From an uncultured Bacillota bacterium (GTDB lineage Bacteria > Bacillota_I > Bacilli_A > RF39 > UBA660): a stretch of DNA of 58,997 nt. The stretch spans positions 1-58,997 of the forward strand of contig CANSWR010000003.1 of the NCBI GenBank assembly GCA_947650795.1, given 5' to 3'. The notes beneath the pieces were generated by a model. It searched no databases. It was not told the origin of the DNA and saw only the letters and a list, made by a program, of their open reading frames with translations. This document shows positions 21,028 through 21,527 of this stretch, piece after piece; within the stretch, counting starts at the first letter, position 1; each line of letters starts with the position of its first letter. The translations under genes were made by a program, and so were the position numbers.

Positions 21028-21171
21028 GCTTCTGCCTCCCATATGACTTTTTATTATAAATATTTTCACACTTTATGTCTACTCATTTTTTCATTTTTTT
21101 TAATTTATTTTTTTTATTGTAACGAAGAAAATACACTAAAAAATTAGTGCATTATTTTTGTTATTTTTTTG

Positions 21172-21200
21172 TTGACATAGTATTAAATTTATTGTAATCT
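21172..21200 (+). promoter_or_regulatory. Near-consensus sigma-A promoter with no ORF behind it
   Basis: TTGACA (21172-21177), exactly 17 nt, TAATCT (21195-21200). Points away from lon toward a structured stretch ending in a T tract, with no coding frame. Confidence 0.8.
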
Positions 21201-21206
21201 AGTTAG

Positions 21207-21293
21207 TAAGAAAACAAAAATAGTAAAACGTAGCGAAGCTTTAGTAGGACTATTAAAGTTAGCTAAGAATTACTATCTAGTTTTCTTTTTTTA
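21207..21293 (+). ncRNA. Candidate structured small RNA (about 85 nt)
   Basis: Downstream of the promoter the sequence folds into one long rod. AAGAAAAC (21208-21215) pairs with GTTTTCTT (21280-21287), ATAGTAA (21220-21226) with TTACTAT (21270-21276), and TAGC (21231-21234) with GCTA (21262-21265). An apical stem follows: 21239-21246 with 21251-21258, with one G-U pair and a GGAC loop. Internal loops are small and nearly symmetric. A run of T ends it, so the outer stem doubles as a terminator. It lacks the SRP GGAA-loop signature and is too short for 6S. No open frame of note. It lies between lon and the convergent 78-residue gene. Confidence 0.65.
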
Positions 21294-21527
21294 TTTTAAA
21301 AATTCTTTATCTTTTTCTATATTTCTGAATGAAAGTTTTGTTAATGTTTTTATTTTTTCATCATTATTTGCTATTATTGATTGTTGGTAAAGAGTGATGA
21401 ATTCTTCAAATATTAAGACTGCTTCATGCATTTTTTTAAAATCTAAAGTTTTATTATAATCATAGATAGCTGCTGTGAAAGTTGAATGAATTTGATTAAA
21501 TATTTTTTGTAGTTCTTCATTTGTCAT
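21291..21527 (-). CDS. Small hypothetical helical protein
   Basis: 78 residues, all helical (LQKIFNQIHSTFTAAIYDYN, then MHEAVLIFEEFITLYQQS). It follows holA by 7 bp and is read with it. This is the place where rpsT (S20) often stands in Bacillota, but the sequence is not S20. Family not recognised. Confidence 0.6.
   Translation of the reverse strand: MTNEELQKIFNQIHSTFTAAIYDYNKTLDFKKMHEAVLIFEEFITLYQQSIIANNDEKIKTLTKLSFRNIEKDKEFLK

Follow-up and report, generated by a model that had tools for sequence, protein, structure and literature searches.

A candidate promoter-driven, rod-shaped small RNA gene beside lon, with homologues in two further species of one Bacilli genus

Intergenic, self-terminating bacterial sRNAs are a general kind of RNA, and the RNA described here is like them in having its own promoter, a short length, an intrinsic terminator, an intergenic position and a non-coding sequence. 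Among described families, small SRP RNA (RF00169) shares with it a rod shape and a similar length (97 model positions), 6S RNA (RF00013) shares a rod-like form and self-termination, and lactis-plasmid RNA (RF01742) shares an AT-rich long hairpin and gives a weak match on the opposite strand. That match scores 21.4 bits, where the gathering score is 70 (E 0.71), lies on the wrong strand and is missing the 3' hairpin, and we attribute it to chance. A search of the window (that is, the whole 58,997-nucleotide stretch of DNA analysed) against Rfam, at gathering and at relaxed thresholds, yielded nothing credible, and a search of the literature on the small RNA at 21207..21292 found nothing. The first-pass annotation had proposed an undescribed structured small RNA, distinct from SRP RNA and too short for 6S RNA; our results bear this out. 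The RNA lacks the GGAA apical motif and the internal loops of SRP RNA, is less than half the length of 6S RNA and lacks its large central bubble, and has homologues in two congeneric species. The small SRP RNA of the genome analysed here (G000) is on another contig (L091, G000:C10:6379-6475, plus strand, 56.5 bits). A separate locus, L092 (G000:C37:7954-8110, minus strand), matches the 6S model over its full length with 27.2 bits, short of the cut-off of 46.4, is missed by cmscan at E 0.01, and is a possible diverged 6S RNA. A CsrA-binding sRNA was considered and rejected: ANGGA in the apical loops is not kept, the sequence being AGGA in G000 and G004 and AGGUC in G008.

The putative promoter consists of a −35 element, TTGACA (21172..21177, plus strand), that is the same in all three species, and a −10 element, TAATCT (21195..21200, plus strand), that is separated from it by a 17-nt spacer and is TAATCT in G004 and TACTCT in G008. 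These elements, which precede a non-coding stretch ending in a T tract, had been reported with correct coordinates and sequence. The pattern TTGACA-N17-TANTCT occurs once on the two strands of the 59-kb window, against 0.06 occurrences expected, for a pattern whose −10 wobble was set after the homologues had been seen. The −10 element is poor, matching TATAAT at 3/6 positions, and a generic promoter scan missed the promoter for this reason. The predicted start lies ~7 nt past the −10 element, at the foot of the outer stem of the hairpin, such that nearly all of the transcript would be one hairpin.

The RNA had been placed between lon and holA; the lon side of this placement is correct, but the 3' neighbour is a 78-aa minus-strand ORF (21291-21527), with holA beyond it. 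This ORF has no Pfam match and no homologue among 40 relatives, occurs in G000 alone among the genomes searched, and is missing at the corresponding place in G004, the nearest relative. In both contexts the gene on the promoter side, lon or, in G008, a 201-aa ORF, is oriented away from the RNA, and no plus-strand gene lies downstream. Because the promoter-side genes point away, the plus-strand terminator would serve only a transcript of the sRNA promoter. Two further features lie on the promoter side. The lon promoter, TAGACA-17-TATAAT, is at 21053-21081 on the minus strand, in a lon 5' region 93% identical to that of G004. A second small hairpin (21131-21150, CACTAA/TTAGTG) lies upstream of the RNA promoter, has in G004 a diverged loop and a kept and extended stem, and may be what actually terminates transcription arriving from holA on the minus strand.

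The RNA (~85 nt, plus strand, with a predicted exact 5' end) is delimited by its fold and by its homologues in two species. The segment 21206-21292 folds end to end with −24.3 kcal/mol (z = −4.3; 0/200 shuffles as good), and z-scores across the three species range from −4.1 to −4.4. From foot to tip, the predicted rod comprises: an outer stem of 8 bp, formed by AAGAAAAC (21208..21215; identical in G004, with GAAAAC also in G008) and GTTTTCTT; a middle stem of 7 bp, formed by ATAGTAA (21220..21226), which is diverged in sequence in the relatives with pairing largely kept, and TTACTAT (21270..21276), assigned from the fold and from pair counts; and an apical domain (21231..21265) that contains a 4-bp stem (TAGC/GCTA), a GA/A bulge, a 10-bp stem (AGCTTTAGTA/TATTAAAGTT) and a GGAC tip in GTAGGACTAT. 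The longest unpaired run in the rod is 4 nt. The outer-stem 3' arm together with a T7 tract (21280..21292, plus strand) forms a Rho-independent terminator, and GTTTTCTT with a plus-strand T tail is present in all three species. The first-pass annotation had described stems of 8, 7, 4 and 8 bp with a GGAC tip, in a single hairpin of ~85 nt whose outer stem is the terminator stem; the end-to-end fold, the tip and the terminator hold, and only the last stem length requires correction, to 10 bp. The RNA in G000 contains no ATG, GTG or TTG start codon, and no plus-strand ORF of at least 20 aa lies over it. A scan of the window for hairpins before T tracts returned 241 by a loose criterion, among which the RNA ranks second by energy. 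In this AT-rich window it is not unusual for a long end-to-end fold to precede T5, so the fold alone is weak evidence, and it is conservation that carries the argument.

The strand cannot be read from fold energy by itself, since the reverse complement also folds well (z = −5.2). Three features favour the plus strand: the promoter; the T tail, which has no counterpart beyond the outer stem on the minus strand of any of the three species (TTACTAAC, TTACATAC, AGTTATAT); and G-U pairs, of which each copy has 2-3, unpaired on the opposite strand.

A DNA search of 60 relatives gave a single clear match, between lon and holA in G004 (77% identity, E 2.5e-13). A third copy, in G008, was found by reading the DNA beside holA in congeners; its other neighbour is the 201-aa ORF rather than lon. 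The search with a model from relatives that had been suggested for this locus was informative: a covariance model built from G000 and G004 only picked up the copy in G008 with 35.4 bits (E 8e-5, 166 kb), the next unrelated match scoring 18.6 bits. The G000-G004 alignment behind this model is shifted by one position over part of the outer arm, an error that can only weaken the model. Common to the three copies are the TTGACA-17-TANTCT promoter, a gap of 8-9 nt before the outer stem begins, a GAAAAC...GTTTTC span of 75-76 nt that is predicted to fold with 29 pairs, a GUAGGNCUAY tip, and tails of T7, T5 and T7 on the plus strand only.

Identity between G000 and G004 is a mosaic: 100% in both hexamers, 65% in the spacer, 100% in the outer arm, 27% and 50% in the two sides of the middle stem, and 90% in the apical part (21231-21270), whose GTAGGNCTAY tip is kept in G008. 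We conclude from the alignment that the middle stem drifts in sequence and retains most of its pairing. With the control of sliding one partner, 85% of alignment cells are paired in register against 33-53% out of register, in a comparison that favours the structure, the tested structure having come from one of the sequences. Compensatory changes, which had been named as the observation that would support the stems, are present, in that four pairs are changed on both sides in the three-sequence alignment, but exceed chance only mildly, in that 73/500 shuffles reach as many. Covariation among three sequences is thus suggestive, that is, supportive of the structure and not proof of it.

The RNA is carried by three of the nine species of the genus (G000, G004 and G008). 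The holA-lon junction is sequenced and lacks the RNA in three others, having 67 bp in G003 and a plain terminator hairpin in G005 and G006, and other sequence occupies the site in G002 and G007. Outside the genus, no copy was found in the family by model search of 243 genomes, under strict filters that could miss diverged copies, or by pattern search of 386 genomes. In the latter set, the conserved pattern occurs in G000 and G008 only, G004 not being in the set as listed; in ~85,000 species genomes it occurs in the G004 and G008 records only; and it is absent from the viral contigs and plasmids scanned, the phage matches being partial and due to chance. The sole extra match of the model R1 over the 243 family genomes, G271 (E 0.025), was judged on reading to be an ordinary terminator hairpin. 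When R1 was run over 39 relatives with laxer filters, the three genuine copies came out on top, together with echoes of them on the reverse strand, and the rest were weak matches, the five best-scoring of which, on reading, resemble coding sequence or simple terminators. The genome of G000 has no second copy beyond short AT-rich matches. Identity of holA to that of G000 is 56% for G008, which has the RNA, versus 58-61% for G005-G007, which lack it; loss in some species or transfer is a possible source of the patchy distribution.

Taken together, the promoter, terminator and conserved fold make it very probable that the locus is a genuine, independently transcribed, promoter-driven gene for a structured sRNA of narrow distribution. 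The best overall explanation, which we consider somewhat favoured, is a dedicated non-coding, self-terminating sRNA gene, whose product may be a trans-acting, protein-binding rod. According to this explanation, housekeeping-type RNA polymerase would start from the TTGACA-17-TANTCT promoter at the foot of the hairpin, transcribe ~85 nt and stop at the U tract after the outer stem; the product would be a single rod, unbranched and almost free of single-stranded sequence; and this rod may be a stable RNA that acts in trans by binding a protein, with the GUAGGNCUAY tip and the outer stem as the recognised parts. We favour protein binding over mRNA seed pairing because the rod has so little unpaired sequence, and, taken as a claim by itself, action by protein binding is tentative and less probable than not.

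The foremost alternative is that the hairpin is a two-way terminator serving the minus-strand gene that converges on it, be this holA or the 78-aa ORF, and that the promoter-like sequence is incidental. In each of the three species the hairpin directly adjoins the convergent stop codon, this is also where G005 and G006 carry their plain terminator hairpins, and the minus strand folds well, with, in G000, a U-rich run (TTTTTGTTTTCTT) after the middle stem. However, in none of the copies does a T tail follow the outer stem on the minus strand, the promoter is kept in all three species while its spacer drifts, and a two-way terminator has no need for a rod of 75-76 nt or for a tip that is conserved. 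We therefore regard this alternative as unlikely. A dedicated sRNA gene and a terminator function are compatible: the hairpin plausibly also helps end convergent transcription (of holA or, in G000, of the 78-aa ORF), and a terminator origin or role is possible, the RNA lying beside holA in all three carriers and plain terminators lying there in other members of the genus.

An sRNA that base-pairs with mRNAs is a second alternative; it might, for example, be a cis-antisense RNA directed at the convergent transcript's 3' end, or pair through its tip once refolded. The RNA runs towards the 3' end of the convergent gene and stops there, and the tip is its most strictly kept part across the three species, but the rod exposes no unpaired run longer than the 4 nt noted above, only a few bases overlap the convergent reading frame, and Hfq had no match in the G000 genome, an absence that is not certain because the assembly is 93% complete. 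Such pairing seems improbable. The genome encodes KH-domain proteins of the KhpA-like (C14) and KhpB-like (C20) types. Finally, a cis-regulatory leader, a 6S-like RNA, an SRP-like RNA or a mobile repeat would fit the rod shape and the single promoter but is highly improbable, in view of the lack of a plus-strand gene downstream, the far greater length of 6S RNA and the location elsewhere of its weak candidate, the SRP RNA already present in the genome, and the lack of a second genomic copy, of plasmid copies and of anything beyond partial chance matches in phages.

Little of the sRNA repertoire of uncultured gut Bacilli with reduced genomes has been charted, and a promoter, a terminator and a fold conserved in three species make the dedicated sRNA gene a concrete candidate for checks in metatranscriptomes; it would be a modest addition unless a protein partner or a target emerges. 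In comparison with intergenic self-terminating sRNAs in general, the RNA here is almost wholly double-stranded, has its terminator stem as the foot of the molecule, exposes no seed and has a very narrow distribution. That it is an undescribed protein-binding RNA restricted to this genus, working as a near-perfect rod whose GUAGGNCUAY tip is conserved, in a reduced-genome lineage of Bacilli that lacks Hfq, is rather doubtful. The RNA looks like an ordinary lineage-specific sRNA, that is, a new sequence of a known kind.
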